Origin: Lathyrus oleraceus
Lineage: Eukaryota > Streptophyta > Magnoliopsida > Fabales > Fabaceae
Reading direction: 5' to 3'
DNA length: 64,000 nucleotides
Assembly: GCF_024323335.1 (NCBI RefSeq)
Contig: NC_066581.1
Location: forward strand, 37,385,199-37,449,198
Made by a program: the position numbers and the translations under genes. Under the pieces are notes generated by a model. It saw only the letters and a program-made list of their open reading frames with translations, was not told the origin of the DNA and did no database searches. Position 1 is the first letter of the stretch. Every line of letters begins with the position of its first letter. Shown here piece by piece: positions 5,025 through 64,000 of this stretch.

Positions 5025-5155
5025 GAGCCCTTTCCACACTTGTTGTAAAGGTTGTTGTTTAGTGAAAAATTTGTTTGTGCAAACATGATTGAAGAGATGA
5101 GAAGAGAATATACAAATTTATTTACATTTTGTGTTTGGATAGATAAACCCATTGC

Positions 5156-5199
5156 CTACGTACCATCTTAAAAAAAAGATTAGGATCAAAACCTCGTAG
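5156..5199 (-). other. HP1 hairpin (element A LTR)
   Basis: Outer stem CTACG (5156-5160) pairs with CGTAG (5195-5199); inner stem ATCTT (5165-5169) pairs with AAGAT (5176-5180). The inner stem differs from the CTCAT/ATGAG of H but still pairs. Confidence 0.55.
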
Positions 5200-8050
5200 T
5201 TCGGGGTAAAAATCTCAAAACAAGTTGGTGAATTGATTGGTCCAAAAGCCTCAAGATCTTTTGTTATCAAAGGGAGAAAACTCAATCAAACCACAAATCC
5301 CCCATGTGAGGATAGCTTCAACATGCTAGTGAGGGTTAACCCTATAATAAGCATGGAAGACTCATTGTCCATCACTAAGAATACAGGTGAGTATTACATC
5401 TACCAGAAAGATAACTCAAACCTAATAGCTAAAGGTTATGAAAGATTTGATTAAGAAAGTGGCTATTGGAACCATAAAAGACATTTGAATGGGTTATATT
5501 TACCAATTAGAAGTATATACAAAATGGTCAAAGTTGACTTAAAGATTCAATTCAAAATAAGTGTTATGAAAAGAAAGTTTGAAAATCAAAAGCATAAGGC
5601 TTAGGTTTCTAATGTTTGAAAACAAAGGTTAAATGTTTGCACAAAAGGTTTTGGCTTGGGTTAGAGTGGAGGGAAGAAGAAGAAGGGCTAAGTCTTAAGT
5701 AAAGCAAAAAAGGTGAGGGATAAAGAAACAAAACCACATGGAGTTCCTCTCTTGAGATCATATTGATGATCCAAGTAGCTCCCATCCTTTGGAATAAGCA
5801 ATCACAATAATAGTAAGCTCAAGCAATCAAACAAGTCTCTTAAGAGATCCTCAATGTATCTTGTATCTTTCACTTTGGATGAACATGGCAATGGTCCTTC
5901 AATAAAGCTCAAGTGGGAACCCCTAGCACAAGAACACACACATCAAAGAGTTTTATGAAACAAATCAAGAATGGACAAGAGTGAGTTTAGAGATTGGTCC
6001 ATATTCATCATCAAGGTCCTTTTACTCCAATTTTGCATAGGGAATATCCTAGATACTAAGTCCATTTCTTTGCATTTGGTTCACAACAAACAAAACAAAA
6101 ACACAAGCACAATAGTATATACACAATTATGTGCTCAAGTGAGCAAAAGGCAAATGGCATTAACATAAACATGTGCTCAAGTGAGCAAAGGGAAAAGAAA
6201 ATGGATAATATGTGCAAGAGTAGTAAATTGCATAAAAGTAAAGAGCAAAAAGTAAATGTTAATTGTTAATGGTTAGTGTTAGTAGTTAGTGTGCCATAAG
6301 GCAAATTTAGCGCTATGTTAAGCAATCGTAATTGGACTTATGTAGAAGTCACAACTATCTGAGGTCGGTCAATAATAATGTAGGCAACAACACAAGTTAC
6401 AAGTCTTGATTAGTGAACCAAGTTCCAACAACTTGCCATGCCAAAAAGAAAAAAGAGAATTGATCTTGTATTGGTTTAAGCCTTCTGCATGATTTAGAAA
6501 ATAACATATCCTTAATGCAAAGCCATTCACTTGATCAATTGATCAATATGAATTAGATTTGAATCAAGGAAGATTAAGTCTCCCTAATCAATGCTAACTT
6601 ATCAACCTTCAACTCATTGATCAAAAAGAAAGACGAAGAAAGAAGAAGGAGATCAAGAATGGATAATGAAAATGGAAAGATCAAAATGCATAAAATGGAA
6701 TAAGATGTACCAATCCATATGTATTGACCAAATGACATTGAAAGTCAAAGTCAAACAATAAGAAATCAGAAATGGGATGAAGATTGGAGATCAAACAAAT
6801 AGCATAATATTTTTGGCATTTTCAATATTAAAATAAACTTGAATTAAGAAATAAAGAAAGGTCAAACTTCAAAATCACTTCAAATCAACCTTGAAAGGTC
6901 CAAGTAATTTATCCCAAGTTCAACAAGGTCAAACAAAGTTTGACAAAAAATTTCAGCATTTTTAAAAGTCAGAAACTATTTTTATCAATTAAAAATGAAT
7001 AAAAATAAACTAATTGAACTAAAATCTCAAATAAATCTCAAATCAATTAAAAAATTGATGAGAATATTTTTCATAGATCCATCATCATTCAAATAGGTTA
7101 GGAAAATATTTTTGTATTTTTTGAATATCAAAAACTATTTAAAATGAATTAAAAATAACCAGAAAAGAGAAAATTCACAAAAAATATCAAATGATGAAAT
7201 ACAAAATATTAAAAATCCGAATCAGAAATTAGAATTTATTTGGAGACTAATGCAATTGGTCCCATAATTTTTGGATTTAAAATAAAGAAGTTATGAATTT
7301 TTGAAATAAAAGGGAATTAAAGAAAATAAAATCAGAAATTAAAAAAAAGTGGAAAATCAGGAAGCGTTGGATCACGTTCATTAATTGACGTGGCCAATCT
7401 GATGGTCCTGAAGCGCGCGCTCATGGTGAACCTTGGACAAACCCGTCACACAAAGAATTAAAAAAAGTCATAACATTCAAAGGCTGAGATTAAATCTGGA
7501 GATGAGATCCAACGATCCAGATTCAAACTGGCAATGGACGGCCACCGAAGCCACCTTCTTCTCCGGTGAGCTTCCAAATTCCGGCCAGATTTGCAGGTTT
7601 TCAAACCTTCACCATTTTGCACGATCCTTATACCAAAATGAAGTTGGGGTGATGTACATCACCCCTGTAACCTTGAATCACACTCAAGATTCCTATAGGT
7701 TAAGAAATCTGAGGTGGAAGATTCAGGTATGAAAAATGCAGATCAAAGAAAAACAAAATTGAAGCTACCACTAGCTTGCCTCTCAAGTGAGGACTTCAGA
7801 AAACACTTTGGCCAGGCAAATAGATCAAAGAAATTAGAGATTCGAAGCAAATAAGTTTGAACAACAACCTTTAAAGTGCAACTTTACAGGTCTTGATCCA
7901 CTCCAAATCTTTTGTGCAATGTATTCTTGAGGTAACAAGGAAGCAAGGCTTAGGAATTTAAATTCAGAGATCAACAAATGAAGTTGAAATCTGAACTGTC
8001 AAATTGAAATGGAAAACTCATAATTCCTTTAATGGAGGTTGGGATTTCAC

Positions 8051-8283: not shown

Positions 8284-8373
8284 GATCCACTCTTGTTGTT
8301 CTTGTCTAAAGGGTGTGTGTTTATCTAATGTACTATTTACTAAAAGAAAAGGGTCAAAGAAAATGACTCGCAC

Positions 8374-8431
8374 GGATGTCGCATCCACTGCATACGTATC
8401 TCATCTGAATATGAGAATCAGAGTCTTCGTA
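8374..8431 (-). other. HP1/HP2 module 1 (H left arm)
   Basis: HP2 stem GGAT/ATCC around GTCGC (8374-8386), then HP1 outer stem TACG (8393-8396)/CGTA (8428-8431) with inner stem CTCAT/ATGAG. Mirrored near 15784-15841. Confidence 0.55.
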
Positions 8432-8468
8432 GCTCGGTTACCTATGGGTTAAAGAGGAGTGTGCTCGC

Positions 8469-8529
8469 TAAGACATCGCGTCTTATGCCTACGTATCTCA
8501 TCTGGAATGAGAATCAGAGCAAAACGTAG
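8469..8529 (-). other. HP1/HP2 module 2 (H left arm)
   Basis: HP2 TAAGAC ATCGC GTCTTA (8469-8485) and HP1 CTACGT (8489-8494)/ACGTAG (8524-8529) with inner CTCAT/ATGAG. Mirrored at 15686-15746. Confidence 0.6.
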
Positions 8530-8674
8530 TTCAGCTAACTACGGGAATAAGGGTCTCGATTGCAACTTGGGCAAGAGAAAGGGAAGGTCTCGATCGCAAC
8601 GAGGGCGAGAGAAATGGATCGCAACGAGGGCGAAAGCAAACAAGGATTAGTTGTTAGTTGTTAGTCAAACTCGA

Positions 8675-8735
8675 CAAGACATCGCATCTTGTGCCTACGT
8701 ATCTCATCTGAACATGAGAATCAGAGTTGTCGTAG
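8675..8735 (-). other. HP1/HP2 module 3 (H left arm)
   Basis: HP2 CAAGA/TCTTG within CAAGACATCGCATCTTG (8675-8691) and HP1 CTACG (8695-8699)/CGTAG (8731-8735), inner CTCAT/ATGAG. Mirrored at 15480-15540. Confidence 0.6.
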
Positions 8736-9025
8736 TTCGGCTACATAGGGCTTGCCATCTGAACATAGACTTACAAAGGAGGACACTAGTTGTGTCAAAG
8801 GAGAGTGGGCAATGTGTCCACATCCTAGCAGTAGGTGTCGCAACTCGCTGAATCGAGTCTTAGGCGGTTACCTCTTTGCAATAGGACGGACTACATGCCA
8901 CAAGATCGGAGACGCTCGGAAAGGTCTAGAAGTGGGGGAAGCTCTGCCCTAGAGTTGTCATGCAATATGTACTTAAGTGTTAGGATTTACAAATGGGAAT
9001 ATCTACCTAATGTTAGCATGCAAAG

Positions 9026-9235: not shown

Positions 9236-9345
9236 AAAGGTAGACGGCGATGCATGAAGCAATCGACTTACAAGGTTGATGGCGATGCATAAAGCAATCG
9301 ACTTACAAGGTTGATGGCGATGCATAAAGCAACCGACTTACAAAA
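9236..9345. repeat. Tandem repeat, about 34-bp unit x3 (H left arm)
   Basis: Three units containing GATGGCGATGCAT and AAGCAATCGACTTACAAGG. Mirrored at about 14875-14980. Confidence 0.85.
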
Positions 9346-12360: not shown

Positions 12361-12375
12361 TTGAATAGGGGCAGC
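12361..12375 (+). other. Polypurine tract of H
   Basis: TTGAATAGGGGCAGC directly before the LTR start TGTAACATC. The same AATAGGGGC core precedes the LTRs of B and E. It primes plus-strand DNA synthesis. Confidence 0.85.
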
Positions 12376-12436
12376 TGTAACATCTCAAAATTTGCCCTCC
12401 TTTTCTTTCTAAAAAAAAAAAAAAAAAAAAATTGCA

Positions 12437-12560
12437 GGCTTTGAGTCGACCATAAGGGTCAGCGCATAGCATGCTTGAGCCGACCTATGGTCGGCGCATA
12501 GCATGCTTGAGCCGACCTATGGTCGACGCATAGCATATTCGAGCCGACCTATGGTCGACC
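12437..12560 (+). repeat. U3 tandem repeat, 34-bp unit, 3-4 copies
   Basis: Units contain GAGCCGACCTATGGTCG and CGCATAGCATGCTT. CCGACCTATGGTCGG inside the unit is a near-perfect palindrome. Its location upstream of the TATA box suggests a possible enhancer-like or hypervariable U3 repeat (inference). Confidence 0.85.
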
Positions 12561-12802
12561 GCTCGTGCGAAAACTCAGTTTTCTGAGTATTTTCCACTGT
12601 GTGAAAAGCTGTTTTCGGTTGCCAGACCACAAATTCGACCAGCCCTTGCATTTCCTCATTTGGCCATGTACTTTAATTGACAACTCACTTAAGTTTTTCC
12701 AAATAAGTCATTTCCTAATACCACCCCACATTGCCAACTTTGTTTCAAGTGCACACAATCAAATCCAAGTGAACTAAAGCCCATTAAGGATTTTTGAAAC
12801 CA

Positions 12803-12813
12803 ACATATATAAA
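12803..12813 (+). promoter_or_regulatory. TATA box of H LTR
   Basis: CATATATAAAC followed by CTTGAAACCCTAATC, typical of plant LTR promoters. Predicted transcription start about 12840. Confidence 0.6.
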
Positions 12814-14874
12814 CCTTGAAACCCTAATCTGAAAAGGGTGGCTGCATTTCTGAAGCAAAGCAAGAGTGAGCAAGCAAGTAAGAGCAACACAAGTCAACCT
12901 CCTTTTTTCAAAGATTGCAGCACTAGAAGCAACACACTTTCTTCCATTTTTCTCCACTAGCAAGGAGTAAGGGATTGACTTCCATTAGGTAAACATTCCT
13001 TGATTTGTTCACTACTGTTTTGCTGTGTGTTCATGCCATTTCATAGCTATTGCCATGCCATTACTATTGTTTATTTGACACTTACCATGCTTGTTCATCA
13101 TATTTACATGCTCACTTTATGTTGTTCCCTGTTAATACCATGCCATGATTTGTTTGTGAAGCCCTCACCATGAGGCATTGTTGTTGAGTTTGAGTTTATG
13201 TTATTAAAATTTCTATTGGTATCCATGCTCATGTCTACACCTTGCTGTTCATATTTCTTTATGTTAGAACCATCATTTTCACTAAAACGAAATACCATGA
13301 TGTTCCTCTCACTTTGTACTTGAACTTTTCTTTTTATATCATCCAATTTCATGAACTGTAGAGGGAGATATGGTGGTGTGAAAGAGGGAGAAATTTTCCT
13401 TTCCATTTTCGTTTTGCCTTGCATACTGTTGTGTTGTGTTATTATTATTTATTATGCATGGGAGATGCTTGCGTGTTGCGCCCTGAGTCGCTGGATGGCA
13501 TGCGTCCTTCTCATCATCACCGTTCAGCATGGCTTTTGTCGTTTAGTGTTTTTTAAATGAGAGCATGACCGATTCACATAGTGTTGCATGATTTTTTAAA
13601 TGAACTTTTTTGTTATTTTTGGTCACATGCTGAATGCTCCGCTGGATCGGGCCTTTACCCGCTTGCTATTCACACCCACACACAAAGCCCATTGCCATGA
13701 TACTCTTTCATTTCTGTTCATTTCTTTTTATTTCCACTTTATTTTTCTGTTTTACTTTTAATTATTAAAAATATTTTATTTGTTCACAAAAATGCCAAAA
13801 AATATTTTTTACTTTCCTTATTGTCTTATTTAATTTATTTTAATTTTTATTTTCGTTTTTATTTAATGCTAGTATTTTATTTCAATTATTTGTTTCAAAT
13901 AGACCATTTTAACACACTTTGTTTCATTTATTTTATTTCCATAACTTAAAATTATTTTTAGATTCTGATTTTTGGGATGAGGGTTGACCAATTTCTCATG
14001 GTCAATCTGACCTTTTATTGGAATTTTATTTCCCATTTTTAATTTATTTTGGATTTATTTTTGGCCTAGTTTGCTCGGTTGACTCTACATTTGACTTCTG
14101 TTTTTATTTCAATTAATTCAATAACCAATTTTTATTATTTTTGAAACCTTTTTGGGGGATGATGATGTCCTGACCCCACCTAACTTAAATTAATTTTTCA
14201 TAATTTTTGTGATTAATTTACTATTTATTTGACATTTTTTTAAGTTGACTTGACTTTTCGGTTGACTTTTCTATGATTGATGTTTGACATAGGGATTTCT
14301 TAGGGCAATTGAAGAGATCTTTTGATCCTCCCTTGTTCATCTCATGTGCCACATATTAGAGGCATTTCATCTTGATTTTATTTGATCCTTGCATCATTTC
14401 CCGATTAAATTATTTATTGATTCTTTGTGTGCATAATTTCACTTGTCTTATTCATCTGATATTTTTTCTACTTGTTTCTTTCATCCATGTCTTTATTGTT
14501 TGATTGCTTAATATGTTTATACTTCTCATACATTGTTTAATGCTTCATTATTTCATTCTCTGATTATTTGACTTGATCATATACTTGTTTATATATCTTA
14601 TCTGTCTGATTAATAATTGTTGCCTACTTGTATGATGTATGAGGCATATATTATTATTATTTGATTGCCATGAACAATCCCCATTCATAACAAATGTATC
14701 CCTCTCCCATGAAATGTATAATATTTATTCTTTCATTCTTTATTCATCTGTTAATACAAGAATTAAAATGAACATTCGATAACCATTTCAAAACAAGATC
14801 AAAACCTCGATCCAACGTCGAGTAATCATTTTTCAAAACCTAACAGAACCAGCACGTATTCATCCACCCTTTTG

Positions 14875-14980
14875 TAAGTCGATTGCTTTATGCATCGCCA
14901 TCAACCTTGTAAGTCGATTGCTTTATGCATCGCCATCAACCTTGTAAGTCGATTGCTTCATGCATCGCCGTCTACCTTTA
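14875..14980. repeat. Mirror of the 34-bp tandem repeat (H right arm)
   Basis: Reverse complement of the repeat at 9236-9345; CCTTGTAAGTCGATTGCTT recurs three times. Confidence 0.85.
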
Positions 14981-15039
14981 TTCCTAGCACCTCTCCTTGC
15001 TCCACTCGTCAATTCTTGTTCCGATTAGGTAGCACCCAT

Positions 15040-15190
15040 TAGATAGAACCTTTTGTATGATAACATAGGTAGGATTCCCATATCCTTTTGTATGATAACA
15101 TAAGTAGGATTCCCATATCCTTTTGTATGATAATATAGGTAGGATTCCCATATCCTTTTGTATGATAACATAGGTAGGATTCCCTTATTC
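15040..15190. repeat. Mirror of the 36-bp tandem repeat (H right arm)
   Basis: Reverse complement of 9026-9170, four units with TAGGATTCCCATATCC. Confidence 0.85.
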
Positions 15191-15479
15191 TTTGCATGCT
15201 AACATTAGGTAGATATTCCCATTTGTAAATCCTAACACTTAAGTACATATTGCATGACAACTCTAGGGCAGAGCTTCCCCCACTTCTAGACCTTTCCGAG
15301 CGTCTCCGATCTTGTGGCATGTAGTCCGTCCTATTGCAAAGAGGTAACCGCCTAAGACTCGATTCAGCGAGCTGCGACACCTACTGCTAGGATGTGGACA
15401 CATTGCCCACTCTCCTTTGACACAACTGGTGTCCTCCTTTGTAAGTCTATGTTCAGATGGCAAGCCCTATGTAGCCGAA

Positions 15480-15540
15480 CTACGGCAACTCTGATTCTCA
15501 TGTTCAGATGAGATACGTAGGCACAAGATGCGATGTCTTG
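15480..15540 (+). other. HP1/HP2 module 3 in sense (H right LTR)
   Basis: CTACG (15480-15484) pairs with CGTAG (15516-15520); CTCAT/ATGAG pair inside; then CAAGA TGCGATG TCTTG (15524-15540). This is the sense-strand form of the module, after the predicted transcription start. Confidence 0.6.
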
Positions 15541-15685
15541 TTGAGTTTGACTAACAACTAACAACTAATCCTTGTTTGCTTTCGCCCTCGTTGCGATCCA
15601 TTTCTCTCGCCCTCGTTGCGATCGAGACCTTGCCTTTCTCTTGCCCAAGTTGCAATCGAGACCCTTATTCCCGTAGTTAGCTGAA

Positions 15686-15746
15686 CTACGTTTTGCTCTG
15701 ATTCTCATTCCAGATGAGATACGTAGGCATAAGACGCGATGTCTTA
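15686..15746 (+). other. HP1/HP2 module 2 in sense (H right LTR)
   Basis: CTACGT with ACGTAG, inner CTCAT with ATGAG, then TAAGAC GCGAT GTCTTA, a 6-bp stem with loop GCGAT. Confidence 0.6.
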
Positions 15747-15783
15747 GCGAGCACACTCCTCTTTAACCCATAGGTAACCGAGC

Positions 15784-15841
15784 TACGAAGACTCTGATTC
15801 TCATATTCAGATGAGATACGTATGCAGTGGATGCGACATCC
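15784..15841 (+). other. HP1/HP2 module 1 in sense (H right LTR)
   Basis: TACG/CGTA with inner CTCAT/ATGAG, then GGAT GCGAC ATCC. Confidence 0.55.
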
Positions 15842-15932
15842 GTGCGAGTCATTTTCTTTGACCCTTTTCTTTTAGTAAATAGTACATTAGATAAACACAC
15901 ACCCTTTAGACAAGAACAACAAGAGTGGATCC

Positions 15933-15946
15933 CGTAGAGTACTACG
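15933..15946 (+). other. HP3 hairpin, AGTA loop (H right LTR)
   Basis: CGTAG AGTA CTACG, directly upstream of the conserved GGGGTGCTAATACCTTCCC block. Confidence 0.6.
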
Positions 15947-16159
15947 GATGCGTAGGGGTGCTAATACCTTCCCTTCGCATAATCGACTCCCGAACCCAAG
16001 ATTTGGTTGCGAGACCTTGTCTTTTCCTTTCCTTTCTCCAGGTTTACTTTGAGCGTTTCCTTTCCCTCCTTTGGGATAAATAACGCACGGTGGCGACTCT
16101 TCTGTCATTTTTTTTCGCCGGTTGTTTTTTCGCACCTCTGTATTTTTCAGGTTGCGACA

Positions 16160-24465: not shown

Positions 24466-25256
24466 TGATCTCAAAGGACTTCTCATCAAAACTTAGCTTT
24501 GTCCATTCCCCTTATTGTGTTGTGAACTTTTTGATGTTTGCTTTTGTTTGATAGGGATCTTACCTTGAGATTATGAAAAGAGGACCATTGTCATGAGTAT
24601 CCAAGTTAACAGACAAGCCAAATGGAGATCCCAGGAGCTTGAGTTCAAATTATGTGATTGCTTGTAGTGTGTTAAGTCCAAAGGAAAGGAACATCTTGAA
24701 TCATCTCTATGATTCCAAGAGAAGGAACTCCAAGGGTTTATCTTTCCCTTCTTATCTTTGTATGCTTTAGGACTGGCCCTTCTCTTCTTCTCCCCACTCT
24801 AACCCAAGCCAAAAATATTCTTTTCAAACTTTGACTTTGTTTCAAATTAGAAACCTAGGCCTTATGCCTTTGACTTTTCAAAACCATTTTCATAAATATT
24901 TATTGTGAATAAATCTTAATCCAACTTTGACTTCATTTTGTAAATCAATCTAACTTATAAATATAACTCACTTCAAGTTGTTTTTGTGGTTCCAATGGAC
25001 ACCTTATTAAAACCTTTTCATAAACATTAGTCATAGGTTTGAGTTATAACAGTGGTTGATGTAAATCTCACCTCATCCTTAGTGTTGGATTATAAGCCTT
25101 CCATGCTTATTATAGGGTTAACCCTTCACTAGCATGTTGAAGCCTTCCTCACGTGGTGGATTGTTGGTTTAGGTTGAGTTTTCTCCCTTTGATGACAAAA
25201 GACCTTAAGGCTTTTGATCAAAACAATTCACCAATCTTTGAGATTTTTACCCCTAA

Positions 25257-25311
25257 CTACGAGGTTTTGGTCCTCCTTTGTGCTGGTACGTAGGCAATGG
25301 GTTCATCCATT
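25257..25311 (+). other. HP1/HP2 module (element B LTR)
   Basis: CTACG (25257-25261) with CGTAG (25289-25293), then AATGG (25296-25300) with CCATT (25307-25311). The inner stem of HP1 is weak here. Confidence 0.5.
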
Positions 25312-25419
25312 CAAACAACAAACTTGTAAATATAATCTATTATTTTCTTATCCCCCCAATCTTTTGTACAAATATTTTCACAAATACCAACCTACAACAC
25401 ATATTTGCAAAAAGGGTTC

Positions 25420-26949: not shown

Positions 26950-27784
26950 GGGTCCCCTAAGAGTTTATTACCCAGTAACTGGTAATATCCTTCTTAGTTT
27001 GCAGTTTGCTACTTCTTGCCCAATACCCGGCAAATGTACCTCTGTATTCTCCTCGGTGGAGTCCCCAGTGGATTCATTTTTGTGATTCCCCAAGAAGTAT
27101 ATCCTTGATATGTTCATCCTAACCGATGATAGATATTTTCTTCCCCTTTTTGAGTTTATCCTTGATATGTTCATCCTAACCGATGACGGATGCTCTCACC
27201 TTTGATATTCTACCCAGTAAAAAGGTAGTTGTAATCCCCATTTTGTTCCCCGGAGGGTTAATCCTTGATATGTTCATCCTAACGGATGACGGATTTCCTT
27301 CTCTTTGCAGTCTTCTACCCAGTAACCGATAGTTGTAAATCCTGCTTTTCTCCCCTTTGCAAAGTATATCCTTGATATGTTCACTTTAATCGGTGACGGA
27401 TATTCTCTTTGATTGTAGTCTATCCAGTAACTGATAGATGTAATCCCTATTTCTCTCCTCGCAGAGTCTATCCTTGATATGTTCATCCTAACCGATGAAG
27501 GATTTTCTCTTTGTTGGTTTTCTATCCAGCATTCGATAGATGTAATTCCTACTTTTTGTTTAATGGGTTTATCCTTGATATGTTCATCTTAACTGATGAT
27601 GGATATCCTCCTTAACATCCTCAGGCAAGTCTATCCTTGATATGTTCGTCCTAACCGATGGCGGATTTTATTTCCTTTGAGTCTATCCTTGTTATGTTCA
27701 TCTTAGTCGATGACGGATATTCTCATATTTGGTTTTCTGCCCAGTAATTGGTAGTTGTAAATCCTATTTCTGCAGTTTTCCCCC
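26950..27784 (+). other. 3' UTR fragment of element D with 35-bp repeats
   Basis: Plus-oriented 3' UTR related to that of B. It alternates CCCAGTAACCGGTAG-type motifs with about eight copies of a unit containing TATCCTTGATATGTTCATCC then TAACCGATGACGG (27108-27720). PBS-complement-like pieces include CCCCTAAGAGT (26953 on), CCCCAGTGGATTC (about 27064) and CTCGCAGAGTC. It is interrupted at 27785 by E and resumes at 48962. Confidence 0.75.
27780..27784. repeat. Target site duplication of element E, left copy (CCCCC)
   Basis: CCCCC before TGTCGCATCAC at 27785; matching CCCCC at 48957-48961. Confidence 0.8.
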
Positions 27785-27969
27785 TGTCGCATCACGCGAA
27801 AAACCGGCGGGAAAACAAGAACAACAGAGCCGCCACCGTGCGTTATTTATCCCAAAAGAGGGAAAGGAAACGCTCAGAGTAAACCTGGAAAGAACATGGT
27901 CTCGCGACCAAAGAGAATGGGATCGAGAGTCGGTTATGCGAAGGGAAGGTATTAGCACCCCTACGCATC

Positions 27970-27983
27970 CGTCGTACTCGACG
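27970..27983 (-). other. HP3 hairpin, AGTA loop (E 3' LTR)
   Basis: CGTCG TACT CGACG on plus, sense loop AGTA. Identical in the 5' LTR at 45150-45163. Confidence 0.6.
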
Positions 27984-28084
27984 GGATCCACGCACAAAAG
28001 GAAGGAAAATGGTTGCTAAAACACTACTCACACACACACACACTGGCTGAAAGAGACACAAGAAAACAAAAGAGACTGACTCGG

Positions 28085-28144
28085 CAGGATATCGCATCCT
28101 GGGCCTACTTAGTCTATCAGGCATAGACATCAGAGTCGAAGTAG
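28085..28144 (-). other. HP1/HP2 module a (E 3' LTR)
   Basis: HP2 CAGGAT ATCGC ATCCTG (28085-28101). HP1 outer stem CTACTT (28105-28110)/AAGTAG (28139-28144) and inner stem GTCTAT/ATAGAC. Both HP1 stems differ from those in H yet pair fully. Copy at 45263-45322. Confidence 0.65.
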
Positions 28145-28172
28145 TTCGGACTGGGAAACGGCACATGCTCGC

Positions 28173-28234
28173 TAGGATGTCGCATCCTATGCATACGTAT
28201 CTTCTCGGACGAGAGAAGAATCAGAGCATTCGTA
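28173..28234 (-). other. HP1/HP2 module b (E 3' LTR)
   Basis: HP2 TAGGAT GTCGC ATCCTA (28173-28189); HP1 TACG/CGTA with inner stem TCTTCTC/GAGAAGA, 7 bp. Copy at 45351-45412. Confidence 0.65.
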
Positions 28235-28414
28235 GCTCAGCTGACACACACACAAACCAACACTGGCAAAGGCAAACGTGGAGCCTGACTGCCAATCACT
28301 GGACTTACATCAGCATCCGAACCAAACACACGCACACTGGAACCTAACTGCCACTCGATGGACTTACATCAGCTTCCAAGCACACAACAAGACAAAACAA
28401 AGACATAGGCGCCC

Positions 28415-28476
28415 GGAGAGATCAGCTCATCTCCTGCCTACGTACCTCATCTGGTATGAGGATCAGGGCGACGTAG
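28415..28476 (-). other. HP1/HP2 module c (E 3' LTR)
   Basis: HP2-like GGAGA/TCTCC (28415-28434); HP1 CTACGT (28438-28443)/ACGTAG (28471-28476), inner CCTCAT/ATGAGG. Copy at 45593-45654. Confidence 0.6.
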
Positions 28477-28633
28477 TTCCCCTACGGAGGGATACAGGAC
28501 TAGCCTAACCAGATAACAGAGGGAGACACAACTAGGGAGACTACGACTCGAGCCTAGATGTTATCATGCAAAATCAACCCTAAGTTAAGGTTTCTAGCTA
28601 ACTGGCACAGGGAGCCAGCCTATCCTAATCATG

Positions 28634-28760
28634 ACTTGCACAGGAAGCAAGCCACACACACACTTAACTTGCACAGGAAGCAAGCCAAGCAAAACCTAAC
28701 TTGCACAGGAAGCAAGTCTAAACTAACCCTAACTTGCACAGGAAGCAAGTCAAACAAACA
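28634..28760. repeat. Tandem repeat with ACTTGCACAGGAAGCAAG, 4 copies (E 3' LTR)
   Basis: Four units of about 30-36 bp in the R-U5 part, repeated in the 5' LTR at about 45812-45938. Each unit has the imperfect inverted pair CTTGC/GCAAG. Confidence 0.85.
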
Positions 28761-31537
28761 TACAAGCACAGATAGCACACACTATACACAAGCAAGTGGC
28801 TCAAACAAGGGTTAGGTTTTAATCGAGGGGTCATATCAACCTCAACAAACAAACCTCTGGAACCGGGTGAATGTGCTCTTAACCTTGCCATTGAGGGGCT
28901 AAAGTGAAGCAGATGAAAGGTGAGTGAAGATAAGACTTCACAGCTCTTATCCCTGGCCTGGGAGAGCTTAAGACAAGAATGTGTGGGTTCAGAAAGTGGG
29001 AACCCTTCTACACATTTGATACTGACTCAACTGTACAATTGTACAAGATCTTGGGTTTGTATCTGCAATGCATCAACACAGTGGTGTGAGCAAAGCAGAT
29101 GACACACAGAATAGCAGGGGATAGGTTGCTTATCCCTTGGGTTCTGCCAATTGCCTCTTCACTTAGGAGGTCTTTGACTCTATACAAGGACAAATTAAAC
29201 ATCCACAAACATTGCCTCTTAAGGAGGACTTCAGACAATTGCCTGGCCAAGTAACAGGCCAGGTCTTCCAGACTACATGAAGATGAGAAATATACCTCAA
29301 TGCAAATTGCTTATACAAGCAAAGCAAAGTAAAAGTTCACAAGGAACTGAGCAACTAAAAGCACCTGAAATAGTCAAGCAGGCATTAGTATACAACTTCA
29401 AACAAAGCAAAAAGAAACAGACATCAACAGTTAATCAGAAGCAAATGGATGTGCAAGGCATAAGGCTTAAGGCATGTGAGCCAAGCCACCTACAAAACAA
29501 ACAAGTTAGACAATGATATTTAAGCAAGCTCAATCAAAAAGAATTGGTCTCATTGGTCATTTGTTGGTCATCCTGAAAACATGAGCTCAAAGGTGAGTAA
29601 CAGGACCACTAGGGCAAGCCTAGGGTCAAAAAGGAATGAAAAAGTTAAAACAGCAAAGGGAAAGCATCCAAAATCATGTTCAAACAATTAAGAAACACAA
29701 CCAATTGGGTTCACATTCATATCAATCATCATCATCATTTCATGAACAAATTAGGTCAAAACATGGCACTTAGAAGCTCATAGAAGTCAACAGCAAGACT
29801 TGCATCAAAACCAATCTCAAACATTTCCAAAAATCACCAAATAAATCATGATCAATCACAACCCACAGAATGGTAAGCATGTCAAATTTCATCTCATTTG
29901 GACAAGTGGAAGGCAGTCAATAAAAATCAGAAAGGCAAGGCAATTTTGAACATGCTCAAAGAAGTCAACCAAACATACATCAACTTGAAAAAATCATAAA
30001 TTAGTGATAGCATATGAGAAATGAATGGGATCAAAACCATGGCAAAGCTTAAGATGTCTAGTTATCTCATGTAAAATTTCATGTCCATCTAATAAAGTAT
30101 GAGGATTTCACAAATGAAATGGCAACATGCATCACATAAGGTCAACATTTTGGTCAAACAGGGGAGAAAATCTCAAACAAATGGAAAATGGCACAAATAA
30201 TTCCAAGCAAAAATCATGTGCAAACTAGACATACAAAGGTAGGTTCATGCAAAATTTCAGATCAATTGGAGGTCAAGAAGCATGGATACGAAAATCAACA
30301 AGTTGCACATCAATGGTGTGACACAAATTGTCACACCCTACTTCAAAAATTCACAACTTAACAACCAGATAAGATAAATTCATGATCTCTACATCAAAAT
30401 CACCATGGATGAGTGTAGTTTATGCACAAAAAATTTCAGGGTCATTGGATATATCATCATCATTTCACAATTGAATTGGCCAGAAGTACAAAATATTGAT
30501 ACATGAGCAAAACCCTAATGCCATTAAAAATTCAACCATCCAAAAAATCAACAAAAATCATGATAAAAAGTAGAGATTCATATAAGTATGATGCAGAAAT
30601 TTTCATGAAATTTGGATTTGAATTGAAGATGTTATGAATTTTAGAAGATGATGTATCAATTTGGAATAAACATCAAAAACAAACATGGTTTAATGAGTCA
30701 AAGTGGTTGACCGGTGGCATTTTTGAAATTATTACTCCAACTAACCAAAACGCATCGTTTAGCACAGGGAAATAGAATGTTTTGATTGGTTGAGGACAAT
30801 GGAACAGGGCTATGCACATGCAGACGACCAAACACGATTGGGGAGAAAATCTGGAAAATGCTAGGGTTTGCTACAGTGTTTACCATCATCTTCTTCAAAA
30901 TCGTGAAGAACAAATGTGCCCAGAAATCAACAGCAAGCATACCATTCGAACAAATGAAACAAACACAATCATAATATAACAATCATATGTCCTAGATCGA
31001 ACTAACAAAGGAGTAACAAGCACAAACATGTTTCATCATCAAACTTAAACATAGCATAACTTTCAAAATAGCCAACCATTTTTAGTGGTTCAAGTTCCAA
31101 AATGACCAGCATAAAGAGCTCTACACAAAGCATTGCATGATTTAGAGAAAAGAGCGACTCAAGTTCTTACTTGATTTTGAAGAAATCAACGAAACAGTGT
31201 TGTTTGTGTGTTGTAAGCTCAAACAGATGAAGCTTGTGGTTTGAAATGATGAATGGAGAGTGGCTTGTAGCTCAACAACCCTTGGAAATGCTCAAATCGA
31301 ATTTCACCATTGATGTGTGCTTGGTAAAACAGAACATGAAGATGCTGTTACAACAGGAAAATGAAGCTTGCCATGGTCTCAAGATTGATGGTAGATGATA
31401 AAACAAACAAGATGGCTCGTGGTTCTTTGGAAGTTTTGGCCAGAAAAATGCAAAATGAGAAAATGAGATCTGTTGAGAGAATGAGTTTTCTGTTGGTGAT
31501 TGATGGCTGCTAGGGTTTGTTTCAGAGATAAAATGAT

Positions 31538-31548
31538 GAATATATACC
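31538..31548 (-). promoter_or_regulatory. TATA box, E 3' LTR
   Basis: GGTATATATTC on the minus strand, homologous to 47924-47934. Confidence 0.6.
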
Positions 31549-32567
31549 CTGTTTAATGGTACTGATCAAGGTTCATGAAAATGTGGAATGGAGTTGGTGA
31601 AAAGTGTACTTTTTGCCAATTTTCAAGCAAGTTGGGGATGGGTGTGTGTACTGCACGAAATGGGCCTCCAACAAGTCTCAAATGTCATTTCTGAACATAT
31701 TCCAATGGCCAAAGTGATTACAAATGGTTATTTTAAAAGGTCAAAATTTACTTCACTTGAAATTAATTCAAGTAAGTCAAAAAATGCCATTTTGATCTAT
31801 GATGTTTTGGTGAGTGATGGTTACATTTTTGGAAAGAGGAGGTCAAATGTGACTTGTTGGAAAAACCCCACCAAATTTGGCCAAATGGTTTGAGAGATAT
31901 GGCCTTTTGAAGTTCAAAAATTTCTGAAAATGATTTGATCATAACTTGCCAACCATACATGGGAATTGAGTGTTCTTGGACTTTTTGGAAATGGGAGAAC
32001 AAGATCTTCAACTTTCATGTTGGGCAAAAATTCATTTGAAGCTTGTATCATGATGTAAGTTTGAGGATCAAGACTTTCCATTTTTGGCAGGTTTCAATTA
32101 CAGGTCCAGTTTCTATTTTTGGAAATTTCTGATCTGGCTTCAAATTCTTCCATGATGGTGTTTGACATGATATATGAGGCCTATTTGGACATGAATAAGC
32201 TCTCTCAAACCAAATCCCATCATCAAAACCATAAAATCAATCACAGTTGACCAAGTTTGACTTTTTAGGGTTTCTGGCAAACTGTGCATTGACTGATGAC
32301 TTCTGAACATCCAATCCTTGACCAAAACACTTCAAATGGATCCCCAAGTCATGTGAACATGTTGGACCAACCCTAGGGCCTTGGCTCCTTGAGAAATGCA
32401 CTTGCTTGCTTGACTGACTGATCTCCTGACCAGTTTGACCTAATTCTCTTGATTGGCTTGCACTTGAGGCAAATAGGACAATGCAATGTTATGCAGTGGA
32501 CCATGTTATGTTATGACCTAATATGAGAATGTATGTACAATGATAGGTGCAAATTTGAGGTGCTACA

Positions 32568-42496: not shown

Positions 42497-44138
42497 CTAA
42501 GACAAACGGCCTCCCGGAATGAGAGTCTTCAAGTACTGACACTGGTCTATCAACAGGTCACATTCTGAACATTCTGGCAAAAGAGTGATCTTCTCCTTCA
42601 GTTGTCGTCTAAGCTCTACCACTTCTCCTCCAAGGTGGTTCTCTGATGCCTGTCTCAAGTCTACTTCCTTCTTCAACTGGATGTCTTTATCTCTGAGTTG
42701 CTTCTCCAAGTCTCTGATCTTCTTCTGATAGCTGGCCTCAACTCTCTGCAACCTCAAGCACTCCCGGTGTTCTGCATCTAACATGCTCTCCATCTCCTCG
42801 TAGGATCTCTTCTTGCTTCTCAGTCTGCTAGCATCTTCTTCTCGCACTCCTCTGAGTTGATGAGCCAAGTTCAAACTATCAGCTTTGGCTTTGTACAGCT
42901 CCATCTGGGTATCTTGCTCCTTCCCTCTCAAACGGCGATTCTCCATCAGGGCTTGCTTGTAGTGCTCCGCAGGCACACTCTCAGCAAGGATCAAAGGTGG
43001 TTGCTCCTGCAACGGCTCCATCCTATCGTAGGGTAACAACAAAGTTTCCTACTCTCTCCTTGACCCAATCAGTGTAATCAGGCATAGCAACGGCAAACTT
43101 CTTCCCTAAGACAGATCCATCCTTCACACCAATAGACTTCCAAGCTCTTCCTATCTGCTCCAATCTATCCGGGTCACTCTGCTTCTCAAAATACACACTT
43201 TCAGCTACCTCAGCCTCAAGTGGTCTTCCCTTCATCACAAACCCCAACTGGCGGAGAGAAAGAACCGGGTTGTAATTGATGCAACCCCTAGTCCCTATGA
43301 GTGGCACATTACGGAATCCTCCACAGCTCATAATGACGTTACGCACATCCATCCGGTAAGATTGCCACCTGATATCATAGGAGGTAAGAGACATAACCCT
43401 CTGAGTCCACTTATGCGTGCTCTGAGCATCCACAAAAGGTCCACTGACTGGCAGGAGAGACAAGAACCATCTGAGCAAAAGCGGGAGACAACACCTGATA
43501 GCCCCACCCTTACCATGCCTACTGTGAATAGCATAGTAAGTGTCAGCTAACAGAGTAGGAACTGGATTTCCTCCAATGAAAATACTGACTGCAGCATAGT
43601 CAACAAAATTGGGCATACTCGGAAACAGGACGATCCCATAGATCATGACGGCCAACTGAGCATGAAAGGCTTCCCAACTTCCCTTCTCTGCTTCTTCTCT
43701 AGCTACCCTCAACAGAAACTTCAAAGGCAATCCTACAACATCCCCACTGGACTTCCAACTATCACTGACTTCCTTGATACCCAAATGGAGAGCTCTGGCA
43801 ACAACTCTGAAATCAACCTCCTTGGGCACATCCAAGAAAGGAACCTGATACCGGACCGGGACACTCAGCAGAATGGAGTACTCCTCAAGAGTAGGCGCCA
43901 ACTGATAATCTTGAAAGGTGAAACAATGAAGCTCTGGGTCGTAGAACTGTAGAAGAGTCTGCAACGGCACCGGATCGACTACCATCTTCAACAGTGTCAG
44001 AATATCTCCATACTGGTCAACAAACCCCTTCTGGTTACCACTGGTCATAAGGTTGCTCAACTCAATCAGAGACGTCAAAGGTTCACGGTGAAAGCTGTAG
44101 GAACAAGTCTTCCGCTTCAACTCTGGGACTGTTGCCAT
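42497..44138 (-). pseudogene. Ogre ORF1 protein of element E (one frameshift)
   Basis: Start MATVPELKRKTCSYSF at 44138; the open frame extends 16 codons further up, but this ATG matches the ORF1 starts of F and A. N-terminal domain: LLQFYDPELHCFTFQDYQLA, LEEYSILLSVP, YGIVLFPSMPNFVD, NPVPTLLADTYYAIHSR, GFRNVPLIGTRGCINYNPVL and DWVKERVG. A one-base shift at about 43038-43046 leads into a C-terminal coiled coil of about 160 residues (YKQALMENRRLRGKEQDTQM, QKKIRDLEKQLRDKDIQLKK). The function is unknown; the N-terminal domain resembles the plant-mobile-domain/DUF7745-like family. About 547 codons in all. Confidence 0.82.
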
Positions 44139-45262: not shown

Positions 45263-45654
45263 CAGGATATCGCATCCTGGGCCTACTTAGTCTATCAGGC
45301 ATAGACATCAGAGTCGAAGTAGTTCGGACTGGGAAACGGCACATGCTCGCTAGGATGTCGCATCCTATGCATACGTATCTTCTCGGACGAGAGAAGAATC
45401 AGAGCATTCGTAGCTCAGCTGACACACACACAAACCAACACTGGCAAAGGCAAACGTGGAGCCTGACTGCCAATCACTGGACTTACATCAGCATCCGAAC
45501 CAAACACACGCACACTGGAACCTAACTGCCACTCGATGGACTTACATCAGCTTCCAAGCACACAACAAGACAAAACAAAGACACAGGCGCCCGGAGAGAT
45601 CAGCTCATCTCCTGCCTACGTACCTCATCTGGTATGAGGATCAGGGCGACGTAG
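45263..45654 (-). other. HP1/HP2 modules a-c (E 5' LTR)
   Basis: The three modules of the 3' LTR recur here at 45263-45322, 45351-45412 and 45593-45654, about 2.3-2.7 kb downstream of the predicted start and 0.3-0.7 kb from the PBS. The AGTA hairpin is at 45150-45163. They would therefore be in the 5' leader of the genomic RNA. Confidence 0.6.
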
Positions 45655-47923
45655 TTCCCCTACGGAGGGATACAGGACTAGCCTAACCAGATAACAGAGG
45701 GAGACGCAACTAGGGAGACTACGACTCGAGCCTAGATGTTATCATGCAAAATCAACCCTAAGTTAAGGTTTCTAGCTAACTGGCACAGGGAGCCAGCCTA
45801 TCCTAATCATGACTTGCACAGGAAGCAAGCCACACACACACTTAACTTGCACAGGAAGCAAGCCAAGCAAAACCTAACTTGCACAGGAAGCAAGTCTAAA
45901 CTAACCCTAACTTGCACAGGAAGCAAGTCAAACAAACATACAAGCACAGATAGCACACACTATACACAAGCAAGTGGCTCAAACAAGGGTTAGGTTTTAA
46001 TCGAGGGGTCATATCAACCTCAACAAACAAACCTCTGGAACCGGGTGAATGTGCTCTTAACCTTGCCATTGAGGGGCTAAGGTGAAGCAGATGAAAGGTG
46101 AGTGAAGATAAGACTTCACAGCTCTTATCCCTGGCCTGGGAGAGCTTAAGACAAGAATGTGTGGGTTCAGAAAGTGGGAACCCTTCTACACATTTGATAC
46201 TGACTCAACTGTACAATTGTACAAGATCTTGGGTTTGTATCTGCAATGCATCAACACAGTGGTGTGAGCAAAGCAGATGACACACAGAATAGCAGGGGAT
46301 AGGTTGCTTATCCCTTGGGTTCTGCCAATTGCCTCTTCACTTAGGAGGTCTTTGACTCTATACAAGGACAAATTAAACATCCACAAACATTGCCTCTTAA
46401 GGAGGACTTCAGACAATTGCCTGGCCAAGTAACAGGCCAGGTCTTCCAGACTACATGAAGATGAGAAATATACCTCAATGCAAATTGCTTATACAAGCAA
46501 AGCAAAGTAAAAGTTCACAAGGAACTGAGCAACTAAAAGCACCTGAAATAGTCAAGCAGGCATTAGTATACAACTTCAAACAAAGCAAAAAGAAACAGAC
46601 ATCAACAGTTAATCAGAAGCAAATGGATGTGCAAGGCATAAGGCTTAAGGCATGTGAGCCAAGCCACCTACAAAACAAACAAGTTAGACAATGATATTTA
46701 AGCAAGCTCAATCAAAAAGAATTGGTCTCATTGGTCATTTGTTGGTCATCCTGAAAACATGAGCTCAAAGGTGAGTAACAGGACCACTAGGGCAAGCCTA
46801 GGGTCAAAAAGGAATGAAAAAGTCAAAACAGCAAAGGGCAAGCATCCAAAATCATGTTCAAACAATTAAGAAACACAACCAATTGGGTTCACATTCATAT
46901 CAATCATCATCATCATTTCATGAACAAATTAGGTCAAAACATGGCACTTAGAAGCTCATAGAAGTCAACAGCAAGACTTGCATCAAAACCAATCTCAAAC
47001 ATTTCCAAAAATCACCAAATAAATCATGATCAATCACAACCCACAGAATGGTAAGCATGTCAAAAACAAACATGGTTTAATGAGTCAAAGTGGTTGACCG
47101 GTGGCATTTTTGAAATTATTACTCCAACTAACCAAAACGCATCGTTTAGCACAGGGAAATAGAATGTTTTGATTGGTTGAGGACAATGGAACAGGGCTAT
47201 GCACATGCAGACGACCAAACACGATTGGGGAGAAAATCTGGAAAATGCTAGGGTTTGCTACAGTGTTTACCATCATCTTCTTCAAAATCGTGAAGAACAA
47301 ATGTGCCCAGAAATCAACAGCAAGCATACCATTCGAACAAATGAAACAAACACAATCATAATATAACAATCATATGTCCTAGATCGAACTAACAAAGGAG
47401 TAACAAGCACAAACATGTTTCATCATCAAACTTAAACATAGCATAACTTTCAAAATAGCCAACCATTTTTAGTGGTTCAAGTTCCAAAATGACCAACATA
47501 AAGAGCTCTACACAAAGCATTGCATGATTTAGAGAAAAGAGCGACTCAGGTTCTTACTTGATTTTGAAGAAATCAACGAAACAGTGTTGTTTGTGTGTTG
47601 TAAGCTCAAACAGATGAAGCTTGTGGTTTGAAATGATGAATGGAGAGTGGCTTGTAGCTCAACAACCCTTGGAAATGCTCAAATCGAATTTCACCATTGA
47701 TGTGTGCTTGGTAAAACAGAACATGAAGATGCTGTTACAGCAGGAAAATGAAGCTTGCCATGGTCTCAAGATTGATGGTAGATGATAAAACAAACAAGAT
47801 GGCTCGTGGTTCTTTGGAAGTTTTGGCCAGAAAAATGCAAAATGAGAAATGAGATCTGTTGAGAGAATGAGTTTTCTGTTGGTGATTGATGGCTGCTAGG
47901 GTTTGTTTCAGAGATAAAATGAT

Positions 47924-57060: not shown

Positions 57061-57355
57061 CCATCACTCAAAATACATCCAACCAATCAAACTCTTTTTC
57101 GCCGCCGTGCGACTAATCAAAGAACCTTTTTCATAAATGAAATATATATTGTCTTAAGTGATATAAAACAATGTTTCGGCCACGATTATTGAGTCGAGAT
57201 AAGTGGCGCTTTTCCGAATGTAGATTTATAAATCCGTTCGATGTGTAGTGTGCGTCCACTCCTCATCTGTTTTGGGTAAGACAATGTTTTCGTCGATTAA
57301 TACAATATAGCTTTCGCTAAAATCGATCAACAAACAAACATTTTTCTACCCAGAA

Positions 57356-57405
57356 CTACGTAAGCCTTGATTTCTCTTTTGAGATACGTAGGAGCAGGAT
57401 TCGTA
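57356..57405 (+). other. HP1/HP2 module (element F LTR)
   Basis: CTACGT (57356-57361) with ACGTAG (57386-57391), inner CTC/GAG around TTTT. Then GGATT CGTA AATCT, a 5-bp stem with one G-U pair. Confidence 0.5.
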
Positions 57406-57559
57406 AATCTTGTCAGGCCCACTAATAAAAAACTTAGGTTTAGTCCTTCGTTAGAAATCCAAAAATAATCTCCTCTCTTCTATCCTTTCTTTCCCACATA
57501 ATAACTTAAAGCCTAACATTTCAACTAACACTAACGCACACGACTAACCTAATGGTTCC

Positions 57560-62582: not shown

Positions 62583-62646
62583 GGAGAGATTTCGCTCAAT
62601 CTCCTGCCTACGTATCTCATCTGGTATGAGAATCAGGGCGACGTAG
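62583..62646 (-). other. HP1/HP2 module (element G LTR)
   Basis: GGAGA (62583-62587)/TCTCC (62600-62604), then CTACGT (62608-62613)/ACGTAG (62641-62646) with inner CTCAT/ATGAG. Confidence 0.6.
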
Positions 62647-64000
62647 TTCCCCTTAATAGGGGTAAAACACTCTCATAACCAGAGACCAGGGAGACAACAA
62701 ACTAATAGGGAGACTAAGACTCAAGCCTAATAGTTGTCATGCAATCAATATCCCTAAGTTGAGGTCTCTAACATGCATTCAACTTCCTCAGAAATCAATT
62801 ATACAACTCCTACAGAAATGGAGATGAGAAGAGGAAAGCAAATAAACACACCAAAACAAGTGAACAAGCATCACTCACTATATCCATACAAGAGGCCCAA
62901 ACAATGGGTAGGCTTTAGTCAAAAGGGGTCATATCAACCTCGACAAACAAGCCAAACTGTAAGGGGTAATCTGTAGCTCTTAACCACTGACATTGGTCAT
63001 CAGGGTGAGCAGATCAAAATGGAAATGAGGATGAGACCTCATGCTCTTAACCCTGGCCAGGGTGAGCTCAAGACACAGAAAGCGTGGGGATCCAGAAAGT
63101 GGGATCCTATTCCAATTGACAGACTCTGCCTCATCTTGGAGGTCTTATCAAATAACACATGCCTCATCTTGGAGGTCTTTGGCACAATTATAAACAAACA
63201 CAAAAATAGCCTCTGAAGGAGGACTTGCCAACAAAATGCCTGCCAAAAAGTGACAGGACTTCCAGACTACATGAAGTAAGAAGCTAACTACCTGAGTGGT
63301 GTATCAACCATAATCCAAGGCTTAAGCAAAAGCAAAAGCAAGCAAGCAACTAAGGTACCTGTACAAAAAGCTAAACAGTTAATACTTAAGTCAATAAACC
63401 AACAGGCAAATAGTGATACCATTCAACAGTTATACAACTCAATGAACAATGCTCAAGCACTCAAATGAACTCATGAGCTCAAGCACATCACTTAAAATCC
63501 TACAAAACAAACAAATGTTAGAACTCAAAGCATTTGTATCTCACAAAGTGAGAACAAGCTCAACCATCAATGCTAAATGTCAAAACCTGAAACACAAAGC
63601 ACAGTTAGTTTATGCACAAAACACTAGTGCAAAGACTAGATTCAAAATCAAACCAAATGATCAAAATAGAACCCAATCTTTTACATAATGCACAATCAAA
63701 CAATCAATAAAATGTCCTCAAAAGGACCAGCATCAATTCAATAAGTAAGTGTCTCAAATGATCTATGTCATGCAAGGACAAACAAATGTGCACAAAATGA
63801 ACTTCCAACTTAGCAAATTCACATCAAATCAGAAATGCATGCAATGGCTTTGAGATTTTTTGTACAAGTTCCTCATATCATGAATGTTCAACATGCAAAA
63901 TATCAAATCCAGAAAGATGTCAATGCTATGTAAACAAAAATGCACCAATTCAATGTCAAAAACGTGACACAAATTGTCACCTTATTCTCCATGTGTCAAA

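Follow-up and report, generated by a model that had tools for sequence, protein, structure and literature searches.

Ogre-type retrotransposons of Lathyrus oleraceus carry in their long terminal repeats (LTRs) one to three copies of a module of two consecutive hairpins, HP1 and HP2. This observation, first made in a preliminary description of the DNA, is real and was confirmed here. With high confidence the module represents a selected RNA structure, and its shape is probably needed for the life cycle of the element. The window, that is the whole stretch of DNA analysed, comprises 64,000 nt (GCF_024323335.1, NC_066581.1:37,385,199-37,449,198, forward strand), and the preliminary description concerned its positions 27,970-28,476. 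Twelve modules from eight families were read, ten in the window and two (L119 and L123) outside it. Six near-identical second copies, three in the 5′ LTR of element E and three in the right arm of insertion H, were excluded from the tests. The 3′ LTR of E and the module copies of the window are:

27785..32567, minus strand: 3′ LTR of E, with TG...CA ends, about 0.8 kb absent from the 5′ LTR, and target site duplication (TSD) GGGGG
28434..28480, minus strand: HP1 of module Ea, E 3′ LTR; P1 CTACG/CGTAG, loop CCCTGAT, P2 CCTCAT/ATGAGG
28415..28434, minus strand: HP2 of Ea, E 3′ LTR; GGAGAT(GAGCTG)ATCTC.CC, hairpin search p = 0.20
28189..28239, minus strand: HP1 of Eb, E 3′ LTR; P2 TCTTCTC/GAGAAGA, P1 with a mismatch or bulge
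28173..28189, minus strand: HP2 of Eb, E 3′ LTR; TAGGAT(GCGAC)ATCCTA
28102..28148, minus strand: HP1 of Ec, E 3′ LTR; P1 CTACTT/AAGTAG, P2 GTCTAT/ATAGAC
28085..28101, minus strand: HP2 of Ec, E 3′ LTR; CAGGAT(GCGAT)ATCCTG
45612..45658, minus strand: E 5′ LTR copy of Ea HP1, from the covariance model
45367..45417, minus strand: E 5′ LTR copy of Eb HP1, from the covariance model
45280..45326, minus strand: E 5′ LTR copy of Ec HP1, from the covariance model
8675..8739, minus strand: HP1 and HP2 of H1, left arm of H; from reading, covariance model and hairpin search
8469..8533, minus strand: HP1 and HP2 of H2, left arm of H; from reading, covariance model and hairpin search
8372..8436, minus strand: HP1 and HP2 of H3, left arm of H; from reading, covariance model and hairpin search
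15476..15524, plus strand: right arm copy of H1 HP1, from the covariance model
15682..15730, plus strand: right arm copy of H2 HP1, from the covariance model
15779..15827, plus strand: right arm copy of H3 HP1, from the covariance model
62583..62650, minus strand: HP1 and HP2 of G, from covariance model and hairpin search
57352..57412, plus strand: module F; HP1 P2 TCTC/GAGA, HP2 CAGGATT(CGTA)AATCTTG
5136..5203, minus strand: module A; HP1 P2 CC.ATCTT/AAGATGG, HP2 weak
25253..25313, plus strand: module B; HP1 degenerate, HP2 weak

The carrier E is an Ogre-type LTR retrotransposon on the minus strand. Its 5′ LTR of about 4 kb (48956-44965) is followed by a primer binding site (PBS; 44962-44946, TGGCGACTCTGCTGGGG), and its long LTRs, PBS at the LTR end and 5-bp TSD are those of an LTR retrotransposon of this type. 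The Pfam matches, made on the separate ORFs as they stand, lie in the gypsy order on the minus strand, with ORF1, gag, RT, RNase H-like and integrase domains. ORF1 (DUF7745, 43023-44186, minus strand, E = 2.5e-116) starts 779 nt past the LTR end and precedes the Retrotrans_gag ORF; such an extra ORF1 upstream of gag marks Ogre elements of the Tat lineage of Ty3/gypsy. Passages of PMC2533021 report an ORF upstream of gag in the Ogre-type family Mtr70 and a tRNA-Arg primer in Ogre-type families, from which the tRNA-Arg-type label of the PBS of E is taken. The LTRs H, G, F, A, and B come from related families and occur in both orientations, and the module-bearing families match each other only patchily in blastn comparisons of their LTRs. 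The H insertion (8056-16159) consists of two inverted LTR-bearing arms of 2917 nt each with 23 mismatches. Both LTR 3′ ends point outward (TGTCGC...GCGACA), and the insertion lies between the two copies of a 5-bp duplication, TTGTG. It looks as though integrase had joined two U5 ends, for example after autointegration. The window also contains a tandem array of 137-bp units within a higher-order repeat of about 800-940 bp (52794-56982) and, adjoining the insertion site of E, irregular repeats with ATCCTTGATATGTTCATCCTAACCGATGACGGAT and variants (27095-27770).

The modules are located about 300-700 nt before the LTR end (those studied in the E 3′ LTR within its final 700 nt). An AATAAA-like signal follows them closer to that end. 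Since they precede this poly(A)-like signal, they belong to R, or possibly to 3′ U3, and not to U5; the preliminary description had assigned them to R-U5. It had also placed them downstream of TATA boxes, which could not be established. The nearest TATA-like words are inconsistent in distance (-838 in E, -888 in H, -128 in F, -318 in A, -164 in B), and G has none within 1300 nt. Even if transcription started downstream of the modules, the RNA would still contain them through the copy in the 3′ LTR. At a minimum, the copies in the 3′ LTR are transcribed, and the minus strand of the described piece is the transcript strand. The stem sequences quoted in the preliminary description are present on that strand.

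HP1 has a uniform order of parts: GAA or GAG (UAA in B), CUACG as the 5′ arm of the outer stem P1, a few bases, the motif YYYUGRU, the inner stem P2, a short loop, P2′, one U, CGUAG as P1′, and GGCA or a near variant. The internal loop had been described as one-sided and containing CTCTGAT or similar. It is one-sided, and its motif is more exactly YYYTGRT, present in 12/12 modules with a single T opposite. P2 begins right after the motif in all modules but one (11/12), F having one extra T, and A contains a 2-nt bulge. The letters of P2 differ: UCUCAU/AUGAGA in H1-3 and G, CCUCAU/AUGAGG in Ea, UCUUCUC/GAGAAGA in Eb, GUCUAU/AUAGAC in Ec, UCUC/GAGA in F, CC.AUCUU/AAGAUGG in A, CUUUGUCA/UGAUAAGG in L119, and UCCUCUA/UGGAGGA in L123; B retains only CC/GG. 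The outer stem P1 reads CTACG/CGTAG in nine of the 12 modules and, with a compensated pair, CTACT/AGTAG in Ec; H3 and Eb show a C-T mismatch or bulge. Of its five pairs, three are invariant, one differs only through the compensated change of Ec, and the fifth is disrupted in H3 and Eb.

HP2 begins within a few bases of HP1. Its GCGAY loop, described earlier for H and for E modules a and b, occurs only in H1-3, Eb, and Ec. In these modules it can equally well be read as a CGA triloop with a closing G-C or G-U pair, the form favoured when no register is imposed on the search. The other HP2 loops are GAGCGA (G), GAGCTG (Ea), CGTA (F), and a longer loop in L123. Dimer initiation through self-complementary loops would not be general in HP2; by eye, only the Ea loop contains a palindrome (AGCU), and GCGAY, GAGCGA, and CGTA are non-palindromic.

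Covariation was assessed on A4, a MAFFT alignment of the 12 modules without hand editing, against tree nulls in which the observed number of changes was scattered over a FastTree tree in 2000 simulations. For P2, 0/2000 nulls reached the observed covariation and 0/2000 the observed pairing. The HP2 stem, with arms registered by hand and L119 left blank, likewise gave 0/2000. Covariation in P1 is not significant (124/2000 nulls, with 335/2000 for pairing), and the outer stem of HP1 is unproven by this measure. In the fixed HP1 columns of A4, 93.1% of the cells are paired versus 82.9% in shuffles and 26-50% with slid partners, and 16 cells are changed on both sides versus 5.5 in shuffles. MAFFT misaligned HP2 of Ea, G, and L123; hence HP2 was evaluated in a five-module subset, in the hand register, and by register-free shuffles. 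In fixed register, the HP2 cells of these 5/12 modules are 100% paired versus 27-50% with slid partners. The register-free hairpin search over the 34 nt after HP1 gave a summed score of 74.5 for the 12 modules, compared with a mean of 50.3 (SD 3.5, largest 65.0) in 1000 mononucleotide shuffles. Taken singly, seven modules have p-values of 0.011-0.038, and the others are B (0.06), H3 (0.12), Ea (0.20), L119 (0.26), and A (0.34). L119 contains no convincing HP2 hairpin, and in B the register-free search prefers a hairpin other than that of the hand register. Arm-swapping permutations (7 of 100000 for P2, 0 for HP2) were discarded, since pairing had been the criterion by which the arms were selected.

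Unguided folding of A4 with RNAalifold draws exactly P1 plus P2 at -7.13 kcal/mol. Tree nulls reach -0.64 ± 0.95 (0/300 as low), column shuffles were as low in 1/300 cases, and the antisense alignment folds at -4.19. Folding of single modules yields mean z-scores of about -0.9 for the sense and -0.7 for the antisense strand, with L123 better in antisense, and these scores are too weak to decide. In minimum-energy folds of single modules, P1 is missing in six of the 12 (Ea, Eb, Ec, G, H3, and L123), whereas P2 is missing in two, H2 and B. When 698 nt of E are folded together, the stems of Ea have low probabilities (0.01 for P1, about 0.3 for P2), and the HP2 region of this module adopts a shifted register; well populated in the long folds are P2 and HP2 of Eb and Ec, P2 of G, and the downstream hairpin HP6 in G and F. 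Among the non-Watson-Crick pairs in fixed columns, nine are G-U and two A-C, which favours the transcript strand. The earlier claim of selection on structure therefore stands for P2 and HP2, on the strength of the tree nulls, the slid partners, the HP1 alignment fold, and the recovery of L119 and L123, but is not shown statistically for P1.

The module can also be found by model. A covariance model of HP1, CM R1, was trained on seven modules (G, H1-3, and Ea-c) and gave 16 window matches at E < 0.01: six in H (three per inverted arm), six in E (three per LTR), and one each in G, A, F, and B. Outside the training set, the E-values are 4.4e-7 (A), 9.9e-6 (F), and 0.0027 (B), and the next window match has E = 0.47. 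The pattern ACTACGN{18,48}TACGTAGGCA matched nine times in the window and on average 0 times in 100 shuffles. A two-stem descriptor anchored only on TGRT was rejected: it gave 62 and 83 matches on the two strands compared with 37-58 per strand in six Markov sequences, so that geometry alone constitutes little evidence.

Copies outside the window were sought as stray plant DNA in bacterial assemblies. The HP1 pattern matched six times in bacterial assembly contigs; L119 and L123 were judged real and the other four chance. CM R1 scores are 39.8 bits for L119 and 39.2 for L123, versus 16.7-21.3 for the four others. Because CUACG, UGAU, and the arm UACGUAGGCA were themselves part of the search pattern, these letters are no independent support, which is provided instead by P2, the additional conserved letters, and HP2 of L123; HP1 is found in both sequences and HP2 only in L123. 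L119 (NZ_QPKJ02000028.1, filed as Solirubrobacter sp. CPCC 204708) is a 4.2-kb scaffold that is AT-rich, has one ORF of at least 80 aa, and carries the LTR-end layout of the window families, including GGTGGCGACTC and TTGGCGACTCCACTGGGGA. For these reasons it looks like a plant LTR retrotransposon fragment contaminating a bacterial assembly. L123 (JAFUBK010000065.1) is a contig of a roe-deer gut metagenome-assembled genome with bacterial ORFs and a short plant-LTR-like stretch. Its GC content is 45% in the 100 nt beside HP1 versus 16-39% over the next 1.9 kb, and it may be an assembly chimera. Recovery in further families, proposed earlier as support, was obtained for HP1 with CM R1 (A, F, B, L119, and L123), but HP2 is weak in A and unconvincing in L119. 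A U5 pattern had 0 matches in bacterial assembly contigs. Six pattern scans of viral contigs returned 0, 118, 1, 0, 3, and 18 stretches, none judged real; the 118 matched strings and the loci L125-L128 were read individually. CM R1 scored at best 17.3 bits on 38 of 146 pattern loci (346 kb, L126-L146 included). The end of the E LTR (993 bases), used as query in a distant search of phage records, had no match.

HP1/HP2 belongs to a structured region that extends further along the LTR. The last approximately 250 nt of the E, H, G, F, A, and B LTRs were aligned (A8) and folded with RNAalifold. In E, the downstream features are:

27969..27984, minus strand: SL-AGTA, CCGTCG/CGACGG with invariant AGTA loop (RNAalifold, covariation)
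27936..27968, minus strand: HP6, ATGCG.AGGG...CCCT.CGCAT around a conserved TGCTAATACCTT loop (covariation)
27898..27909, minus strand: HP4, GGTC(GCGA)GACC with a GNRA tetraloop (covariation not significant)
27840..27873, minus strand: poly(A)-signal hairpin GCGTT...AACGC holding ATAAATA (RNAalifold, covariation)
27827..27837, minus strand: PBS-like copy GGTGGCGGCTC within the LTR, able to pair with the CCGACTCYCG block

SL-AGTA, absent from the preliminary description, is the best covarying element of the region and occurs in all six LTR families of the window. Its stems are CCGUCG/CGACGG, CCGUAG/CUACGG, CCGUCG/CGGCGG, CCAUUG/CAACGG (one A-C), CCUAGG/CCUAGG, and CCUUAG/CUAAGG; 35/36 cells are paired, and one pair shows all four Watson-Crick types. 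Inspection of L119 by eye did not reveal it. The conserved block that follows, GGGGTGCTAATACCTTCCC, forms the hairpin HP6 with a covarying stem; in hand register and including L119, 62/69 cells pair and the remaining seven are T-T. An HP4-like hairpin with stem GGTY/GACC and loop GCGA, GTAA, or GCGAT is present in E, H, G, and F and absent in A and B. As in the retroviral poly(A) hairpin, an AAUAAA-like signal lies inside a hairpin conserved among the six families according to RNAalifold. A PBS-like copy GGTGGCGRCTC (in F, GATGGCGACTC) is found near the LTR end of all six window families and L119, starting 53 (E), 77 (A), and 85 nt (F) upstream of the true PBS, and about 280 nt upstream in L119. 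The long stem that this copy can form with the conserved CCGACTCYCG block upstream of it exceeds the tree null, and the predicted pairing might hide a second primer site.

The numbers of nulls, out of 3000, that reached the observed covariation were 0 for SL-AGTA, six for HP6, three for the long stem, nine for the poly(A)-signal hairpin, and 305 for HP4. As the alignment used for testing had also served to select the structures, the whole-alignment test is the fairer figure. In that test, A8 folds at -25.1 kcal/mol versus -12.0 ± 3.0 in nulls (0/150 as low) and has 12 double-change pairs versus a null maximum of eight. The antisense fold is nearly equal (-24.0), so that a strand preference is clear for HP1 only. 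Probabilities in long folds are at most 0.13 for SL-AGTA in G and F, and 0.91-0.97 in E but at most 0.09 in G for the poly(A)-signal hairpin.

The calculated basis for an interpretation consists of the position of the module, the structure of P2 and HP2, their covariation, and the presence of the module in six families of the window and in two sequences from elsewhere. On this basis, the explanation that we moderately favour is a conserved cis-acting LTR RNA element of Ogre elements (Tat-lineage Ty3/gypsy) that is recognised on the genomic RNA, most likely by Gag. The modules would be the first one to three units of a hairpin chain leading to the poly(A) signal and the PBS. In each unit, HP1 would display its one-sided YYYUGRU loop between a near-invariant CUACG/CGUAG stem and a freely covarying inner stem, followed by HP2 as a second covarying hairpin. 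A fixed loop motif between a fixed and a freely varying stem suggests a protein-recognised loop on a structural scaffold. The element would act in RNA as a recognition site, and its presence in one to three copies may point to binding sites with additive effect. The simplest candidate ligand is the Gag protein of the element itself, given that the module is shared by families with only patchy LTR similarity. The site might mark the full-length RNA for packaging or dimerisation, as do retroviral structured 5′ leaders; this specific role, drawn by analogy, is proposed tentatively.

A function at the 3′ end of the RNA is possible but rather unlikely. The chain in the 3′ LTR would then govern the choice of poly(A) site, the stability of the RNA, or the export of Ogre RNA that is only partly spliced, with the 5′ copy being incidental. 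We know of no plant poly(A) or export motif that the module contains, which speaks against such a function. In its favour, the modules precede an AATAAA-like signal, which in turn is held in a covarying hairpin (9/3000 nulls), and the 3′ LTR copy is transcribed whatever the start site. Moreover, export of unspliced RNA would be a real need, given the functional introns and alternative splicing of Ogre elements described in passages of a review (PMC12786077). Translation control or internal initiation, which is improbable, would profit from an upstream transcription start that puts the modules in a long structured 5′ leader before ORF1; the TATA-like words are inconsistent, however, and the modules lie in the LTR, with ORF1 of E a further 779 nt past its end.

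Three further readings fare worse. At the DNA level, P1 might supply ACGT-core sites or a cruciform. The bZIP A-box is TACGTA, and the 3′ arm contains TACGTAG in 9/12 and TACGTA in 11/12 modules. However, the ACGT of the 5′ arm is missing in H1, H3, Eb, A, B, and Ec, the last of which has changed both arms (CTACTT/AAGTAG). P2 and HP2 covary without a fixed sequence, HP1 folds better in sense than in antisense, and the excess of G-U over A-C pairs favours the transcript strand. This reading is very improbable. A 3′ splice acceptor, with YYYUGRU as the branch site (consensus YNYURAY) followed by a pyrimidine-rich arm and AG, deserves equally little credence: CTCTGAT...CAG in H and CCCTGAT in G and Ea do read as a branch point with an acceptor, but the AG is kept neither in position nor in letters (Ec, B, and L119), the runs of pyrimidines form one side, the 5′ arm, of a stem with compensated changes, and the AG follows the branch point at a short distance. 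Least plausible of all is shared ancestry plus chance without selection on pairing. The few sequences, the many invariant positions, the weak single-sequence folding, and a descriptor only moderately above Markov sequences would fit, but the tree-aware nulls and slid-partner controls were exceeded. Conceivably, though again only as a tentative extension, HP1/HP2 is an undescribed RNA family of Tat-lineage elements in several plant lineages, a repeated double hairpin whose protein-recognised loop marks the RNA for packaging and which, with the AGUA hairpin, HP6, and the PBS-like stem, would amount to a full equivalent, in plants, of the R-U5 leader of retroviruses.

No earlier description of the module came to light in Rfam or in the open-licence papers searched, in agreement with the preliminary description. 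Rfam 15, including self-cleaving ribozymes, had 0 window matches above the gathering score, and a ribozyme reading was dropped for lack of an Rfam match. A permissive scan of 27700-28700 gave a single 14.8-bit match to snR40 (E = 4.8), and L119 and L123 had only sub-threshold matches outside HP1, to wcaG (E = 0.051) and MIR529 (E = 0.16). In the open-licence papers searched, hairpins in Ogre LTRs are not described. The conserved-arm letters also occur in papers, and the matches examined were two actin primers and one cabbage marker primer. To our knowledge, the selection of their own RNA by plant LTR retrotransposons has been little studied, and a compact, covarying, and model-searchable RNA element offers a direct handle on it. 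The module is also a new marker to find and classify degraded Tat LTRs, as CM R1 found A, F, and B while the best other match in 64 kb had E = 0.47. Ogre elements make up an estimated 20-33% of the pea genome according to passages of PMC2206039. Passages of the review PMC12786077 contain no mention of hairpin, dimer, secondary structure, or stem-loop.

Among plant elements, the barley BARE2 element (Ty1/copia) is stated to have dimerisation and packaging signals in passages of PMC3735527. It resembles the present case as a plant LTR retrotransposon RNA with a presumed packaging cis element but differs in superfamily, and these passages give no BARE2 structure. Benachenhou 2013, in passages of PMC3601003, links conservation in long retroviral R regions to stem-loops by LTR HMMs; conservation in a long R is there, as here, tied to stem-loops, in that case of retroviruses, and the main text of PMC3601003 contains no whole-word Ogre, Tat, or Athila. 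HP1/HP2 would belong to a known kind, the structured RNA leader of retroelements. Retroviral R-U5-PBS leaders include the TAR and poly(A) hairpins of HIV-1 and the gammaretroviral Psi double hairpin. We know of no retroviral leader with the fixed YYYUGRU internal loop of HP1 or with a one-to-three-fold repetition of HP1/HP2, and the Ogre chain differs from these leaders also in having no Rfam match. Common to both are several short hairpins in succession within the transcribed LTR, an AAUAAA-like signal held by one of them, the PBS region after them, and a structure that persists while the sequence changes.
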